This document shows, one piece after another, positions 7,653 through 61,380 of a stretch of DNA of 64,000 bases; position 1 is the first letter of the stretch, and every line of letters begins with the position of its first letter. A program made the translations under genes and the position numbers. The notes beneath the pieces were generated by a model, which saw only the letters and a program-made list of their open reading frames with translations, searched no databases and was not told where the DNA came from. Origin of the DNA: Kroppenstedtia eburnea (lineage in GTDB: Bacteria; Bacillota; Bacilli; Thermoactinomycetales; DSM-45169); the NCBI RefSeq assembly GCF_013282215.1, contig NZ_CP048103.1, positions 2,914,001-2,978,000 of the forward strand, given 5' to 3'.

Positions 7653-8810
7653 GTGAAGGAGGAAGCCCGGTTCATTTACAGCGAAGACCTGCTCAAATAT
7701 CGTTTCGGTGACGGCCACCCCTTCGATAATCGCCGGTTGCAGCCCACCCTGGATCTGATCCGGACTCTCGGTCCCTTGGAGGATCATCACTTGCACCCGC
7801 CGCGACCGGCGACAGAAGAGGAACTCACCCGGGTTCACGACCGGGACTACATCACTTTGGTCCAAGAGGCGGACCGGGAGAGCATCCCGCGGGAACGACT
7901 GGAGGAGTACGGTCTGGGAACCGAGGACAATCCCGTCTTCCCCGGAATCCATCAAACGTCAGCCCTGGTCACCGGCGGCACCCTGGAGGCGGCGGAAATC
8001 GTGATGAGTGGACAAGCCCGGCACGCCCTCAACCTTTCCGGAGGATTGCACCACGCCCTGCGCGGCAAAGCCGCCGGCTTTTGCATCTATAATGACGCGG
8101 CTGTCGCCATCGCCCAGATCCGGGAGAAATACCAGGCACGTGTTCTCTACATTGACACCGATGCACACCATGGAGACGGTGTCCAATGGGCTTTTTACGA
8201 TGACCCTGAGGTACTCACTCTGTCCATCCATGAGACCGGACGCTACTTGTTCCCCGGAACCGGAAATATATACGAACGGGGCCATGACGCCGGTTTGGGG
8301 GCCTGCATCAATGTTCCTCTGGATGCCTTCACCGAGGATGAATCCTGGTTGGATGCCTTTCAAAGGGTGGTTCCCCGGATCGCCCGGGCATTCAAGCCTG
8401 ATGTCATCCTCTCCCAGAACGGTTGTGATGCGCACCGCCACGATCCCCTGACCCATCTGTCAGCCACCATGGAAATCTACCGCGTCATCCCCCGGGTGGT
8501 TCACCAACTGGCTCATGAACTGTGTGACGGCCGCTGGATCGCCGTGGGTGGCGGCGGCTACGATATCTGGCGGGTGGTTCCCCGGGCCTGGACCTATCTG
8601 TGGGCGGAGATGTCGGGACATCCCCTGGATGAGATGGAGATCCCCCGGACCTGGCTGGAAAAGTGGCAACCGAACAGTCCGCAGACCCTTCCCGACACCC
8701 TGCACGACCCTGAGGGCCTGTTTGAACCGATCCCCCGCCGGGAGGAGATCACCCAGAAAAACGAACGGACCGTCAACCAGGTACTGCGGATGGCCGGACT
8801 GTCGGAGTGA
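7653..8810 (+). CDS. acuC: Protein deacetylase AcuC (histone deacetylase family)
   Basis: Zn-dependent deacetylase that reactivates acetylated AcsA, reversing AcuA. Family motifs are HHALRGKAAGFCIYNDAAVA, YIDTDAHHGDGVQWAFY (Zn-ligand Asp and His, catalytic His pair), SIHETGRYLFPGTG and NGCDAHRHDPLTHL. Length is 385 residues against 387 in B. subtilis. The start is GTG 7653, one base after the acuB stop, with GAGGGAGGGG just upstream. An open frame continues upstream inside acuB but is a shadow. Confidence 0.95.
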   Translation: MKEEARFIYSEDLLKYRFGDGHPFDNRRLQPTLDLIRTLGPLEDHHLHPPRPATEEELTRVHDRDYITLVQEADRESIPRERLEEYGLGTEDNPVFPGIHQTSALVTGGTLEAAEIVMSGQARHALNLSGGLHHALRGKAAGFCIYNDAAVAIAQIREKYQARVLYIDTDAHHGDGVQWAFYDDPEVLTLSIHETGRYLFPGTGNIYERGHDAGLGACINVPLDAFTEDESWLDAFQRVVPRIARAFKPDVILSQNGCDAHRHDPLTHLSATMEIYRVIPRVVHQLAHELCDGRWIAVGGGGYDIWRVVPRAWTYLWAEMSGHPLDEMEIPRTWLEKWQPNSPQTLPDTLHDPEGLFEPIPRREEITQKNERTVNQVLRMAGLSE

Positions 8811-8860: not shown

Positions 8861-8894
8861 GGGAACGGAGTGACCTTGCATCCATTCACTCCAG

Positions 8895-9129
8895 AAGCGT
8901 TGTGATTTACTGCGTTCTTGGACGGTCAGGATTGGGTTTCACATGTCGTTTTCGTTGTTCTTACGATCCAAAATCACTCCATGTGAAACCCAACCCTCCG
9001 TGCATAGCGAGACCAGGGGCGAAAGCCCCCTGGCGAGACTTGTACTGGTGAGTGCATAGCGAGACCGGGAACGAAATGACCTTGGCGAGACTTGTGCCCT
9101 ATGGGTATGACGGCTTTTTCACAACGCTT
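8895..9129 (+). repeat. MITE-like repeat, copy A (long form, two RNA modules)
   Basis: A 235-bp element bounded by perfect 11-bp inverted repeats AAGCGTTGTGA (8895-8905) and TCACAACGCTT (9119-9129). It is flanked by an exact 4-bp duplication CCAG (8891-8894 and 9130-9133). The left part holds a long hairpin with arms GGGTTTCACATG and CATGTGAAACCC. The right part holds two tandem copies of a module of about 50 bp (from 9001 and 9052) with a GAAA-capped stem in the first copy, then CCCTATGGG. It lies between convergent acuC and the small gene at 9259. No protein is encoded. Confidence 0.9.
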
Positions 9130-9197
9130 CCAGTGCAAATAATGGGTAGTCAACGGCCCGCAATATTTACCTGAATGTATTCCTGAGTCCTCCAAAC

Positions 9198-9521: not shown

Positions 9522-10244
9522 TCAGGATTCGGCGCGGAGGAGAGCGGAGGTTGATCCCTGAACCGGGGCTCCTTCGGATAACCTGCCGTCCCGGATGGTG
9601 ACCACCCGGTCACACAGGTCCAACATCCGTTCATCGTGGGTTACCATGATCGCCGCTTTTTTCCGGGCATGAACTTCCTCCGCCAACATCTCCACCACCG
9701 CTCTTCCCCTCCGGGTATCTAGGCTGGCTGTCGGCTCATCGGCGAGAATGATCTCCGGATCATTCATCCACGCTCTCGCAATGGCCACCCGTTGGCGCTC
9801 CCCGCCCGACAGCGCTTCGGGAACATGATCACGCCGGTGTTCCAGACCCAGACGGCTGAGTAATTCAGTCGCCTGGGCCACTGCCTGTTTCTTATCCAGT
9901 TTCCCCAATTTGGCGATCAGCATCAATTGATCCCACACAGTCAGGTAGGGGATTAAATTGGAAGATTGGAATATGAACCCGATCTGTTTCAACCGAACCC
10001 GGGTCATCTCCTTCCGGGATAAATGGGTAAGCTCCTGTCCGTTGAGATACAGCCGTCCGCTCGACACAGACAGAAGGGCACCGGCGATGGACAGGAAGGT
10101 GCTCTTACCGGAGCCCGAGGGGCCGACCACCGCCACAAACTCCCCCGCTCTCACCTCCAGGGAGACGCGGTCCAAAGCCGTCACCTGTGTGTTCCCTTCC
10201 CCGTAGACTTTGCTCACTTCTTGAAACACCAATTTGTTCTCCAT
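9522..10244 (-). CDS. hrtA: Haem-efflux ABC transporter ATP-binding protein
   Basis: Cytoplasmic ATPase of the haem exporter HrtAB, 240 residues. Walker A is GPSGSGKST (about residue 40), the Q-loop is FIFQSSNLIPYLT, the ABC signature is LSGGERQRVAIARA and Walker B is IILADEPTAS. The start ATG overlaps the hrtB stop by one base, so the pair is translationally coupled. The subfamily (MacB/LolD-like) fits an FtsX-type permease. The haem assignment rests mainly on HrtB and the adjacent HssRS with their operator. Confidence 0.88.
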   Translation of the reverse strand: MENKLVFQEVSKVYGEGNTQVTALDRVSLEVRAGEFVAVVGPSGSGKSTFLSIAGALLSVSSGRLYLNGQELTHLSRKEMTRVRLKQIGFIFQSSNLIPYLTVWDQLMLIAKLGKLDKKQAVAQATELLSRLGLEHRRDHVPEALSGGERQRVAIARAWMNDPEIILADEPTASLDTRRGRAVVEMLAEEVHARKKAAIMVTHDERMLDLCDRVVTIRDGRLSEGAPVQGSTSALLRAES

Positions 10245-19002: not shown

Positions 19003-19191
19003 AGTGAGTCTGGCAAATCCATATCTGGGTCCGGGCTGGTCGGGATTGGGTTTCACATTCCATTCCGTTGTTCTTGCGAGCCAAAGTCATTCCATGTGAA
19101 ACCCCACCCTCCCTGCATAGCGTGACCGGGGAGCGAAGCGACCCTGGCACGACTTGTGCCCTATGGGTATGACGGCTTTTTCACAACTCTT
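19003..19191 (+). repeat. MITE-like repeat, copy B
   Basis: Same orientation as copy A. The conserved hairpin arms GGGTTTCACAT and ATGTGAAACCC (19050-19102) are followed by one RNA module (GCGTGACCGGGGAGCGAAGC) and CCCTATGGG. The right end TCACAACTCTT (19181-19191) is a slightly changed terminal repeat. The left end has the GTGAGTCTGG..AATCCAT form shared with copies D, E and I, so the left limit is approximate. The flanks CTAG (left) and CTAA (right) may be a diverged duplication. It lies between nagZ and ytxG. Confidence 0.8.
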
Positions 19192-28510: not shown

Positions 28511-28944
28511 GTGAGAAACAGGGACATGACTGCAGAAGAGCGCATCCGGTCCGCACTCCGTTTCAGCGGCGTTCCCATCAAAGCGGGTTTCCGGTTCCGG
28601 CTGCTGGCGGAGGGAGCCTGGCACCGGGCTTACCGGGTAACGCTTTTCACAGGTGAATCGCTGGAGCATTGTGAAAAGCCGTCACAGAGGGAGGGTTGGG
28701 TTTCACATGGAGTGATTTTGGATCGTAAGAACAACGAAAACGGAATGTGAAACCCAATCCCGACCAACCCGACCAGCACTAATTCACAACATTTCTGGTG
28801 GTCCGTCTGAAAAAGAAGAACGCCTACGGAGAACAAGTGCCCTTTGATGAGAAAGAGTGGATAGCCGAATACGAATCTGTCTCCTTCTTCTACCGCGCCG
28901 CCAACCGGTGTCGACACGGGATTTGTCCGGCTGAAATCGGATGA
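28511..28944 (+). pseudogene. Aminoglycoside-phosphotransferase-like gene disrupted by repeat copy C
   Basis: The first part (EERIRSALRFSGVPIKAGFR ... AYRVTLFTGESL) and the part after the repeat (VVRLKKKNAYGEQVPFDEKE ... RHGICPAEIG, stop) join in frame if copy C (28665-28794) and one CTGG are removed: GAATCG-CTGG-TGGTCC gives E-S-L-V-V. The AEGAWHRAYRV and VVRLKKK segments resemble the N-lobe of APH-family kinases. Only about 100 residues of an expected 250-300 remain before the stop, so the 3' part is also lost. It starts at GTG 28511 just after the alcohol dehydrogenase stop, or ATG 28526. Confidence 0.8.
28665..28794 (-). repeat. MITE-like repeat, copy C (short form, inside a gene)
   Basis: A 130-bp element in reverse orientation, ends AGCATTGTGA (one base short) and TCACAACATTT, with an exact CTGG duplication (28661-28664 and 28795-28798). 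It holds the hairpin arms (GGGTTTCACAT / ATGTGAAACCC) but not the GNRA module. Precise removal restores the phosphotransferase reading frame. Confidence 0.9.
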
Positions 28945-30782: not shown

Positions 30783-30819
30783 TACCTTCCTCCTTGGGGC
30801 GAAATCCTCACGATCCTGG

Positions 30820-31018
30820 AAGCGTTGTGATTTTGCTTCCGGTGTGTCTGATAAATCCATAACCGGTCGGGAGTGGGTTTCACATTCCATTCCGTTGTTC
30901 TTCCGAGCCAAAATCATTCCATGTGAAACCCAACCCTCCCTACATAGCGAGACCGGGTGCGAAAGCACCCTGGCGAGACTTGTGCCCTATGGGTATGAAT
31001 GGCTTTTTCACAACGCTT
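30820..31018 (+). repeat. MITE-like repeat, copy D
   Basis: A 199-bp forward element with perfect terminal repeats AAGCGTTGTGA (30820-30830) and TCACAACGCTT (31008-31018). The flanks are CTGG and CTAG, one mismatch. It has the hairpin arms TGGGTTTCACAT/ATGTGAAACCCA and one GNRA module (GGGTGC-GAAA-GCACCC, 30955-30970). It separates two coat-type genes, and its right flank contains the TAG stop of the gene at 31019. Confidence 0.9.
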
Positions 31019-31246
31019 CTAGTGAACAGGGGGCAGATCTTCCCGTTCCCGCCCGTCGTGATTGCGGAGCTGTGTCAAAATCTGCCCGACGTGATCCTGA
31101 TGGAGTTGGACTGCGTCCCGAAACCAGCTTTTCAGTTCATCACTCTTGCACTTCTTTTCATACAGCTCACACTTGCGGACAGCCAACGCTTCCGCTTCCA
31201 TCAGGTCCTGCAAATGCAGAAGCTCCATTTGTGTCAATTGTTCCAT
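31019..31246 (-). CDS. Small coat-associated helical protein
   Basis: A 75-residue protein (MEQLTQMELLHLQDLMEAEA ... CKSDELKSWFRDAVQLHQDH) that resembles the short ferritin-like proteins encoded beside CotF homologues in bacilli. A role in the spore coat is inferred from this and from the neighbour at 30477. GGGAGG lies upstream of ATG 31246. Its C-terminus is PPVH followed by TAG, and that stop is inside the CTAG flank of copy D. Confidence 0.75.
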   Translation of the reverse strand: MEQLTQMELLHLQDLMEAEALAVRKCELYEKKCKSDELKSWFRDAVQLHQDHVGQILTQLRNHDGREREDLPPVH

Positions 31247-32316: not shown

Positions 32317-32418
32317 ATGTCCGGTTACTATGGTTACGGTTTTGGCCTCGGCCGTCTTCTGATTTTCCTGCTTGTCATTGCCACCATCTTCGCCCTGGTC
32401 GGCATCTGGGGATACTGA
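32317..32418 (+). CDS. Micro-protein 3 (33 aa) with membrane helix
   Basis: Begins MSGYYGYGFGLGRLLIFLLV and ends FALVGIWGY. GGGGGG precedes ATG 32317 by 7 nt. It differs from micro-protein 4 only near the N-terminus and by I/L in the helix. Likely a single-pass membrane or coat micro-protein. Confidence 0.78.
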   Translation: MSGYYGYGFGLGRLLIFLLVIATIFALVGIWGY

Positions 32419-32467
32419 TTCCAGATCACCCCCCTGAACGTGTTTTCCAATGAAAGGGGGTGTTTCC

Positions 32468-32572
32468 ATGGGCTACGGGTACTACGGGTATGGATTTGGC
32501 CTCGGCCGCTTGTTGCTCTTCCTGCTCGTGATCGCCACCATCTTCGCCCTGGTTGGCATTTGGGGCTACTGA
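32468..32572 (+). CDS. Micro-protein 4 (34 aa) with membrane helix
   Basis: Begins MGYGYYGYGFGLGRLLLFLL and ends FALVGIWGY. GGGGG precedes ATG 32468 by 8 nt. Last of the tandem set; a terminator follows at 32592. Confidence 0.78.
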   Translation: MGYGYYGYGFGLGRLLLFLLVIATIFALVGIWGY

Positions 32573-32591
32573 TCGCCCCACCATTGGAATG

Positions 32592-36792: not shown

Positions 36793-36924
36793 GGGCGTGT
36801 CTGCTAAGTCCATGGCTGTGGACGGTCGGGATTGGGTTTTCCACTTCGTTTCGTTGTTCTGACGAGCCAAAGGCACTCCGCGGAAAACCCAACCCTCCCT
36901 CTGTTGCTCTCACAACGTGTCTCA
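36793..36924 (+). repeat. MITE-like repeat, copy E (divergent subfamily)
   Basis: The core hairpin is present with changed but still pairing arms, GGGTTTTCC and GGAAAACCC (36835-36890), and the GTTGTTCTGACGAGCCAAAG loop. The left end is the GTGTCTG form shared with copy I. The right end contains TCACAACG. No GNRA module and no clear duplication. It lies between divergent nagA and the aminopeptidase gene. Confidence 0.75.
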
Positions 36925-42210: not shown

Positions 42211-42338
42211 AAATGTTGCGAAAAAGTATCAGAGGGAGGGTTGGGTTTCACATGGAGTGATTTTGGCTCGGAAGAACAACGGAATGGAATGTGAAACCCA
42301 ATCCCGACCGCCTTCAAACGCACTAAATCACAACGCTT
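42211..42338 (-). repeat. MITE-like repeat, copy F (short form)
   Basis: A 128-bp reverse element with ends AAATGTTGCGA (42211-42221) and TCACAACGCTT (42328-42338). The flanks CCAG and CTAG differ by one base. It has the hairpin arms GGGTTTCACAT/ATGTGAAACCC and no GNRA module. The right flank contains the TAG stop of the gene at 42339. Confidence 0.88.
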
Positions 42339-42521
42339 CTAGTGGTAATATGCCCGATGATGGTGCTGGATGGTTTGCTCGATGATCTCACTGATGTCTT
42401 TCTTGTTGAGCGCACGGAGGTCGCTGACAATCACTTCGGATTCCAACTCTTCCTCACGAAGCAATTCGTACAGTTCAGGGGAAACAGTCAGGATGAGAGT
42501 GGACAATTTCATCGTTTGCAC
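42339..42521 (-). CDS. Small hypothetical protein ending at repeat copy F
   Basis: A 60-residue protein (MQTMKLSTLILTVSPELYEL ... LNKKDISEIIEQTIQHHHRA) of unknown family. GTG 42521 is 6 nt after AGAGGTG; an upstream GTG at 42530 is part of that site. The C-terminus HHHRAYYH is unusual, and its TAG stop is the CTAG flank of the repeat, so the natural 3' end may have been altered. Confidence 0.6.
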   Translation of the reverse strand: MQTMKLSTLILTVSPELYELLREEELESEVIVSDLRALNKKDISEIIEQTIQHHHRAYYH

Positions 42522-49171: not shown

Positions 49172-49253
49172 ATCTCACCACTCCTTTTTCTTTCTGGAAA
49201 CGAAATATCCCTTCAATGATACCCTGTCCACCAGAAATTAAACCATCCCTCAG

Positions 49254-49489
49254 AAGCATTGTGATTTAGTGCACTCTTGGACGGTCGGGATTGGGTTTCA
49301 CATGACCTTCCGGTTGTTCTTACGAGCCAAAGTCACTCCAAGTAAAACCCAACCCTCCCTACATAGCGAGACCGGGTGCGAAAGCGCCCTGGCGAGACTT
49401 GTACTGGTGAGTGCATAGCGTGACCTGGAGCGAAGTGACCCCGGCACGACTTGTGCCCTATGGGTATAAACGACTTTTTCACAATGATT
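49254..49489 (+). repeat. MITE-like repeat, copy G (long form, two RNA modules)
   Basis: A 236-bp forward element with ends AAGCATTGTGA (49254-49264) and TCACAATGATT (49479-49489), and an exact TCAG duplication (49250-49253 and 49490-49493). It has the core hairpin plus two tandem modules: the first has GGGTGC-GAAA-GCGCCC, the second the GCGTGACC...GGCACGAC form. Same architecture as copy A. Confidence 0.9.
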
Positions 49490-49718
49490 TCAGTATTCAA
49501 CTGAGAAAAAAGAGTAAAACCCTTTTAACACCATTCGATCACCGGGCCCCATATCCTCTGTTAAACTTCGCAATAGTCGCCCCCAACCCCGGTCTTGGAT
49601 TCCTCCGACATGCCGGATCACACCCTCCGGAGGCCCGATTTGGATTATCCGCACCTCATCGGGGGAAAAAAGGGATAAGGAGTGGCAAGACGAAAGTTAT
49701 TACGTAAAGGAGGAAGCC

Positions 49719-53543: not shown

Positions 53544-53625
53544 TTGGGTTGTGAATTGTAAGAACAACGGAAGGTCATGTGAAACCCAATCCCGACCGTC
53601 CATGAACGCATAAATCACAACGCTT
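53544..53625 (-). repeat. MITE-like repeat, copy H (internally deleted)
   Basis: An 82-bp remnant: left end TTGGGTTGTGA (53544-53554), then directly TGTAAGAACAAC, one hairpin arm (ATGTGAAACCC) and the perfect right end TCACAACGCTT (53615-53625). The other arm is deleted, so the hairpin cannot form. The CTAG flank contains the TAG stop of the methyltransferase gene. Confidence 0.82.
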
Positions 53626-54312
53626 CTAGTGCCCCGGATGGGGGTTTTTTTCGAGACGGATCTCCAATTCGATCGAATCCTCCAGAATCTCACAAGACCC
53701 GAATTCGCTTTTGGAGACCATCTCCGCAAAGGCCTGTTTGGTGTAGGCCCGCTTGATGAGCATCGACCTCATCACCCATTTGGTCAGAAGAGCATTGACT
53801 CCGGTATATGCCAACTCCTCTTCCACGTGTCTGTTCAATCTCGCTGAGGATACATCCCCCCGCAGATCAAGAATCACCGCTTTTCCGCCGGGTTTCAACA
53901 CCCGGTGCATCTCATCCAGAGCCCTGATCGGTTGGGAAAAATTTTTAAAGGCGGACCGACAGATGATCAAATCGAAAGTTTCATCCGGAAAGGGCATCGC
54001 TGCGGCATCTCCCAGACGAAAATCAATCTCCACACCTGCTTCCTTGGCGTGCTTCCGTGCGATCTCCACAAAGGTTTCACTGATATCCAATCCTGTCACT
54101 TTGTAGTTGCCAAGCTTCGCCAATTCCAGGGACAGATATCCCGGCCCCGGAGCGACCTCCAGGACGGAAGCCTCTGTATAGAGGGACTGTGCCGCCTTTT
54201 TTGCAACCCTTCTGTAATCCTCCATGTTTTTTCGGGTGTTTTTTGCGTACCAAGCGGCGATCACACCGTTCATCCCCAATCCTTTGTACCCCTTGGAAAC
54301 TTTTTCAGGCAC
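53626..54312 (-). CDS. Class I SAM-dependent methyltransferase
   Basis: A 228-residue methyltransferase of the Methyltransf_11 type. Motif I is VLEVAPGPGYLSLELAKLG (residue ~50), motif II VTGLDISETFVEIARKH, motif IV FDLIICRSAFKNFSQPIRAL, then MHRVLKPGGKAVILDLRG. Substrate unknown. GTG 54312 follows GAGGAGTG. The C-terminus PHPGH ends in TAG at the edge of repeat copy H. Confidence 0.88.
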   Translation of the reverse strand: MPEKVSKGYKGLGMNGVIAAWYAKNTRKNMEDYRRVAKKAAQSLYTEASVLEVAPGPGYLSLELAKLGNYKVTGLDISETFVEIARKHAKEAGVEIDFRLGDAAAMPFPDETFDLIICRSAFKNFSQPIRALDEMHRVLKPGGKAVILDLRGDVSSARLNRHVEEELAYTGVNALLTKWVMRSMLIKRAYTKQAFAEMVSKSEFGSCEILEDSIELEIRLEKNPHPGH

Positions 54313-60054: not shown

Positions 60055-60168
60055 GGGAGTGTCTGATTCATCCACAGCTGGAGCCCGGATCCGTCGGGAT
60101 TGGGTTTCAGATGAACATTCGTTGTTCTGACGAGCCAAAGGCACTCCATGTGAAACCCAACCCTCCTC
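60055..60168 (+). repeat. MITE-like repeat, copy I (divergent subfamily)
   Basis: Core hairpin TGGGTTTCA...TGAAACCCA with the GTTGTTCTGACGAGCCAAAG loop shared with copy E and a GTGTCTG-type left end. No terminal repeats, duplication or GNRA module were found. Limits are approximate. Confidence 0.72.
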
Positions 60169-61029: not shown

Positions 61030-61116
61030 CCCCAACCACTCCCCTGTTGAATCATCTTCACCACAACAGTATGTGGATGGCGGGATTCTCATTCAGCGAG
61101 GGACAGGTACCCTTAA

Positions 61117-61300
61117 AAGCGTTGTGAAAAAGTCATTCATACCCATAGGGCACAAGTCTCGCCAGGGGGCTTCCGCCCCCGGTCTCGCTATGCAGGAAGG
61201 GTTGGGTTTCACATGGAGTGATTTTGGATCGTAAGAACAACGAAAACGACATGTGAAACCCAATCCCGACCGTCGAAGAACGCACTAAATCACATTGCTT
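61117..61300 (-). repeat. MITE-like repeat, copy J
   Basis: A 184-bp reverse element with ends AAGCGTTGTGA (61117-61127) and TCACATTGCTT (61290-61300) and an exact TTAA duplication (61113-61116, 61301-61304). Read on the minus strand it has the core hairpin, one GNRA module (GGGGGC-GGAA-GCCCCC, 61165-61180) and CCCTATGGG. Confidence 0.9.
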
Positions 61301-61380
61301 TTAAATCTGATAAGAGAAAGGAATTTTCGGCAATTGATCGAATATTTTATATTGAAAGCGAATAAGGGGAGGGATGATTC

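Follow-up and report, generated by a model that had tools for sequence, protein, structure and literature searches.

A covarying two-hairpin module repeated within small mobile elements of Kroppenstedtia and other Bacillota, a probable BOX-like repeat family

A repeat module present in many copies in Kroppenstedtia eburnea is predicted to fold into two hairpins in which pairing is kept while the bases change, and comparison of the copies provides strong sequence-level evidence for a conserved, strand-specific fold under selection. The explanation that we consider probable is a structured, selfish, BOX-like repeat module, which makes up the tandemly repeatable interior of a high-copy MITE and occurs in several small mobile elements unrelated to one another.

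RESULTS

Module copies in the window

The flagged copy lies between a gene ending at 8810 (plus strand) and a gene ending at 9522 (minus strand), which from their translations we take to be an acuC-like gene and an ABC transporter gene, respectively. Positions refer to the window, i.e., the whole stretch of 64,000 nucleotides that was analyzed (Table 1). In the first hairpin of module 1, which reads CATAGCGAGACC-AGGGGCGAAAGCCCCCT-GGCGAGACTTGT, CATAG is followed by CGAG/CGAG (with tandem G-A), an A bulge, CC/GG, and GGGGC-GAAA-GCCCC, and then by ACTTGT. The second module of the copy is followed by GCCCTATGGG, and CCCTATGGG is the terminal part of the second hairpin. The further module copies of the preliminary description, at 19116, 30943, 49362, 49414, and 61192-61152, have the bases it had reported: GGGTGC-GAAA-GCACCC at 30943, GGGTGC-GAAA-GCGCCC at 49362, GGGGGC-GGAA-GCCCCC on the minus strand at 61192-61152, and the change from GCGAG/GCGAG to GCGTG/GCACG at both 19116 and 49414.

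Table 1. Features of the module and of MITE family A in the window
Feature	Position	Strand	Basis or remark
MITE family A, copy A	8894..9130	+	237 bp, two modules, CA/CA flanks; TIR search
Left terminal inverted repeat GAAGCGTTGTGA of copy A	8894..8905	+	TIR search
Long hairpin of MITE body (GGATTGGGTTTCACATG...CATGTGAAACCCAACCCTCC)	8926..8999	+	repeat families D1, D4, D6
Module 1, first hairpin	9003..9043	+	sequence reading; structure supported by covariation
Module 1, second hairpin, tandem-linker form (TTGTACTGGTGAGTGCA)	9040..9056	+	inference from alignment
Module 2, first hairpin (GGGAACGAAATGACC)	9055..9095	+	partly decayed, C-A mismatch adjoining loop
Second hairpin TTGTGCCC-TAT-GGGTATGA, then CGGCTTTTTC (terminator-like)	9092..9110	+	sequence and alignment
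Right terminal inverted repeat TCACAACGCTTC of copy A	9119..9130	+	TIR search
Module, Watson-Crick form GCGTG/GCACG, plus second hairpin	19116..19172	+	sequence reading
Family A body without module	28688..28798	-	repeat and TIR search
MITE family A, one module (30943-30983) and second hairpin	30819..31019	+	pattern and TIR search
Family A long hairpin, other ends (GGGCGTGTCTG...CAGACATGCCC), without module	36825..36898	+	repeat and TIR search
Family A body without module	42233..42340	-	repeat and TIR search
MITE family A, two modules (49362-49402, 49414-49454)	49253..49491	+	pattern and TIR search
Truncated family A copy without module	53549..53627	-	repeat and TIR search
Family A long hairpin without module, left end of TGTCTGAT type	60093..60166	+	repeat and TIR search
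MITE family A, one module (61152-61192, GGAA loop)	61116..61301	-	sequence reading

A repeat search found the long hairpin of the family A body at 10 places in the window, including family A copies free of modules. At 36825-36898 and 60093-60166 this hairpin sits within other terminal repeats, suggesting that MITE families here swap internal parts. Folded by itself, the 108-nt stretch from 9003 to 9110 is not exceptional (z = -1.2), so the evidence for structure lies in the comparison of copies rather than in single-sequence folding. Elsewhere in the window, at 32322-32573, two direct repeats lie 154 nt apart with 83% identity over 98 nt, each with a TGA end; these are likely duplicated small genes.

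Copy number and carriers of the module

A search for the two-arm pattern of the module in the whole genome (3.56 Mb on a single contig; family Thermoactinomycetaceae) returned 244 exact-pattern copies, 139 on the plus strand and 105 on the minus strand, and the reversed control returned none. The short motif alone is close to chance, a 12-mer with 2 mismatches being found 8 times in 64 kb against 4.3 expected. We mapped the elements of this genome using the stretches around the copies. Modules stand singly or in tandem with a 53-nt period, mostly within MITE family A, whose terminal inverted repeats (TIRs) are 12-14 bp long. The elements have GAAGCGTTGTGA ends and contain, in order, a long hairpin formed by GGGTTTCACAT arms and between one and seven modules, before closing with TCACAACGCTTC. 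Family A elements measure 185, 238, 291, 342, and 493 bp for 1, 2, 3, 4, and 7 modules, or about 53 bp per extra module. The 2-bp direct duplication outside their ends, mostly TA, is identical in 43 of 78 elements, where 4.9 would be expected, and none of the 115 mapped elements of this genome lies within a predicted gene.

Family A is one of several unrelated carriers, and the module also occurs bare. We distinguished at least five flanking contexts within Thermoactinomycetaceae and different contexts elsewhere; further carrier ends are of the TTGATTAACC, CCCCTTCAG, and TGTCTGATCA types, and in Melghirimyces profundicolus the module is carried by elements with TGCAGGACAG-type ends. Some arrays start or stop partway through a module.

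We found no autonomous element with family A ends in the Kroppenstedtia genome; its four DDE_3 loci all lack these TIRs. The module has no single known companion protein. Spread driven by a reverse transcriptase is not required, since RVT_1, present in seven of eight module-rich genomes, is absent from the eighth (G373). Y1_Tnp (PF01797) has no match in the Kroppenstedtia genome (G000), nor in the module-bearing genomes G381 and G389, and its absence from the former led us to drop a REP/RAYT origin.

Fold and covariation

The unit consists of a long helix and a second hairpin. The long helix comprises CATAG, a C-N-N-G/C-N-N-G step, a bulged A, two pairs, a bulge of 1-2 nt, and a variable 6-pair stem capped by a loop of 3-4 nt, while the second hairpin is G-U rich, with the consensus TTGTRCYC-NNN-GRGTGCAA. 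The first 36 modules had 29 cells with two-sided change, compared with 9.3 ± 4.6 in shuffles. In alignment A2, with roughly one copy per genome, two-sided change was seen in 15 of 16 pairs, with a score of 0.374 against 0.138 ± 0.011 in shuffles; in alignment A3, with 108 distinct copies, it was seen in all 16, with a score of 0.432 against 0.154 ± 0.007 (0 of 500 shuffles). Aligning A2 and A3 to the structural model favors its structure, but both kinds of control, slid and shuffled, fall far short of the observed values: with the partners of A3 slid, the score was at most 0.051 and at most 39% of cells were paired, against 85.8% in the true register, and shuffling within lineage groups only gave a pairing of 0.755 ± 0.004, against 0.858 observed. 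The preliminary description had set a covariation test beforehand on which its claim could fail; covariation was significant, and its statement that pairing is kept while bases change is now borne out statistically, by A2, A3, and the within-lineage shuffles, across lineages with little sequence otherwise in common.

In the long helix, 48 copies have sheared-type tandem G-A (G-A and then A-G) as the two middle pairs, 44 have Watson-Crick pairs at both positions, and about 10 are mixed. The Watson-Crick forms are A-T/C-G, G-C/T-A, and G-C/C-G, and the inner stem switches likewise. A CGAG context is known to make tandem G-A stable. Since tandem G-A is not a standard pair, RNAalifold recovered hairpin 2 alone from the first alignment. 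Two other pairings were considered and rejected. An outer stem of CATAG with CTATG(GG), which seemed good in copies reading CCCATAG...CTATGGG, is not a general pair, since the hairpin 2 loop varies (TAT, TGT, CGT, TGG, and CCCT) while the hairpin itself, RYYC/GRGT, is kept. Pairing of CGAG with a downstream CTTG, an alternative given by RNAfold, fails in that CTTG is constant while CGNG changes.

The GNRA tetraloop, which the preliminary description had made a feature of the module, is present in Thermoactinomycetaceae but is not conserved. The 469 parsed modules include 306 with triloops (mostly GAA and GGA) and 157 with tetraloops, and in other lineages the loop may be TTTA, TTT, TAT, or ACA. 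As to strand, hairpin 2 has G-T or T-G 125 times but A-C or C-A only 5 times, indicating that the plus strand, as written here, is the folding one; in the long helix the two are nearly balanced (26 G-T and 22 A-C cells).

Distribution across genomes

A search of other genomes with a covariance model had been proposed at the outset. Our first model, built from the 36 modules, found the module in 33 of 399 genomes of the class Bacilli, spread over 20 of 146 genera; of the 10 members of Thermoactinomycetaceae in the sample, 9 had it. A second model, built from diverse hits of the first search, was run on a 398-genome sample across the phylum, which also served as a specificity control; all genomes were empty except the Kroppenstedtia genome and one further genome, G515, which lies outside the class Bacilli. 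At three loci of G515 (L331, L333, and L335), a longer multi-copy repeat ends in a divergent module (ATAGAGAGACTTGGCAACTTGTTGCCTAGTCGATC...). A hit in Halomonas (L035) was discarded as a coincidental match, the sequence there reading as coding.

Phages, plasmids, and viral contigs gave no matches beyond chance. The module contains TAGCGA, which resembles a motif of plasmid single-strand origins; the corresponding idea was abandoned after 72,556 plasmids yielded no match. With Rfam release 15, the window at gathering score had no match at the module, and 18 loci of other lineages had no family match up to E = 5; at gathering score, the window matched only a T-box leader at 1265-1473 on the minus strand. 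Several copies lie in the spacers of tRNA arrays or rRNA operons (L157, L164, L270, L286, L290, L352, and L399-L404), and some of the copies in such spacers adjoin Bacillaceae-1 RNAs.

Orientation to genes and replication

The orientation of the module differs among the four genomes analyzed. In Kroppenstedtia it runs against the leading strand (79:36, p = 7.5e-5), and between gene pairs of the same direction it is opposite to the genes in 38 cases and along them in 26. In G381, where dnaA is at the contig end, all 22 matches are on the leading strand, and each of the 18 scored elements lies downstream of a gene in the sense direction, immediately past intrinsic terminators. These elements are a second carrier type, with an AGATAGG left hairpin and a right end TTTTCTAA (L345-L351 and L406-L425). 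In G091 most modules run antisense to the flanking genes (11:3 on the 5' side, 17:7 on the 3' side), and bare modules start right at CCTCC, which is complementary to the Shine-Dalgarno sequence of the leftward gene (L353, L355, L357-L361, and L386-L397); one of these leftward genes is, judging from its translation, presumably smc. In G048 the orientation to genes is random.

We thus rejected any single rule for how the module is oriented to genes or to replication, since the sign differs between lineages. That neither a cis-regulatory nor a single replication rule fits all four genomes points to selection on the element, with the insertion habits set by whatever mobilizes each carrier.

DISCUSSION

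A repeat selected at the level of the element

If the module is the selfish, BOX-like repeat that we consider probable, its fold would be selected at the level of the element, for spread or for tolerance by the host, and not for regulating particular host genes. It would most likely act as a folded RNA when the plus strand is transcribed. The conserved CATAG, GAC, and ACTTGT positions may be recognized by a host or transposon protein, and the number of copies in an array might change by unequal exchange or slippage.

Judging from the base pairs, folding as RNA is favored, although not decisively, over folding as single-stranded DNA, and it is the conserved tandem G-U in hairpin 2 that puts RNA ahead. 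The alternative, which is possible but rather doubtful, holds that the fold works as single-stranded DNA, i.e., as a strand-specific hairpin that replication forks or transposition intermediates would expose and that a transposase or recombinase would recognize, on the model of REP hairpins and RAYT proteins. GNA-type triloops closed by C-G are stable in DNA, and triloops of this kind would fit the strand-specific hairpins and the prevalence of triloops in the module. The near balance of G-T and A-C in the long helix and the replication biases of G381 and Kroppenstedtia also agree with it, but these biases are opposite in sign, the Y1 transposases are absent from both genomes as well as from G389, the module has CATAG in place of a GTAG tag, and the tandem G-U is an RNA-like feature. 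The preliminary reading as structured RNA rather than DNA is only favored, by the strand asymmetry and G-U use of hairpin 2; the near balance in the long helix and the inconsistent gene orientation between lineages weigh against it.

A more ambitious proposal, to which we give little credence, is that the module represents an RNA class of its own, with two hairpins and a putative binding protein that lets unrelated MITEs spread or persist in Bacillota. If true, the module would be a portable RNA passport, traded among TIR-type, hairpin-ended, and bare-array mobile elements.

We regard it as improbable that the module serves its neighbor genes in cis as a regulatory or processing RNA, such as a terminator, antiterminator, RNase site, or leader. 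Hairpin 2 and the T-run that follows it in family A look terminator-like, the G381 elements sit in sense directly past intrinsic terminators, and the G091 copies abut Shine-Dalgarno sequences. However, with the mainly antisense copies of G091, the random ones of G048, and the excess of opposite over codirectional copies in Kroppenstedtia, the folding strand would often be absent from the mRNA, and a host RNA acting in cis does not fit an orientation that differs by lineage.

Least credible, and already largely refuted, is the notion that there is no structural selection and that the covariation is an artifact, produced by mutation that makes palindromes, by gene conversion from one arm to the other, or by fitting the alignment to the model: the copies are indeed repeats, A2 and A3 were aligned to the structural model, and the inner stems are near-palindromic, but conserved non-stem sequence anchors the alignment independently, the true register alone pairs, and palindrome-making would give neither the joint switching of adjacent steps between G-A/A-G and Watson-Crick pairs nor the asymmetric G-U of hairpin 2.

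Interspersed repeats with structure are usually regarded as debris of single species, and their folds are put down to their palindromic nature. In the present case, a single fold persists despite rewritten bases in many families of Bacilli and in unrelated carriers, which argues that it must matter for something that these have in common. Natural variation in the steps (G-A/A-G or Watson-Crick), in the loops, and in tandem number offers ready tests of RNA versus single-stranded DNA and of the binding partner, and a covariance model would help annotators to mask these repeats, absent from Rfam, or to classify them.

Comparison with known systems

By architecture, the family A elements are BOX-like: both are composite repeats with TIRs, a target duplication, a left body, variable tandem modules, a right end, and predicted stem-loops. 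BOX of Streptococcus pneumoniae, organized as boxA-boxB(n)-boxC, has about 125 elements per genome and is described as being almost exclusive to S. pneumoniae, S. mitis, and S. suis (PMC3049150); Kroppenstedtia has over 115 module elements. The present module differs in its taxa and in that one covarying module is common to unrelated carriers and to bare sites across many Bacilli families. BrickBuilt, a MITE of Porphyromonas gingivalis with an internal minisatellite of 23-nt units, is known from one species (PMC4596501). It likewise has a tandem-array interior and is always intergenic, but the Kroppenstedtia module is a 53-nt two-hairpin unit that covaries across genera.

REP/BIME sequences with their RAYT proteins (PMC3733652) share with the module the hundreds of extragenic, strand-asymmetric palindromes in arrays and the alternative complementary stem residues. 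In contrast, nearly all copies of the module carry CATAG at the hairpin foot instead of the GTAG tetranucleotide, its own genome is without a Y1/RAYT gene, and its units have two hairpins and are embedded in TIR MITEs. Family A carriers resemble MITEs of the IS630/Tc1-mariner type, such as RUP, in the 2-bp TA duplication and in TIR length, but no matching autonomous element was found in their own genome, and other carriers of the module have other ends.

The nearest published category is that of mobile/repeat sequence candidates, of which 250 are listed (PMC11109978); the module is, like these, multi-copy, covarying, and inconsistent in orientation. One of them, MRSC-65-2, forms one long stem with a UYCCGG repeat and also has many copies per genome, a covarying stem, inconsistent orientation, and an undecided RNA or DNA form (PMC11109978), but the consensus of our module has two hairpins and is without the UYCCGG repeat. 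The module matches no Rfam family, differs from MRSC-65-2, the one listed candidate compared, and probably belongs to a previously uncatalogued folded repeat family of Bacillota, the unusual point of which is a single covarying module common to unrelated carriers over many families.
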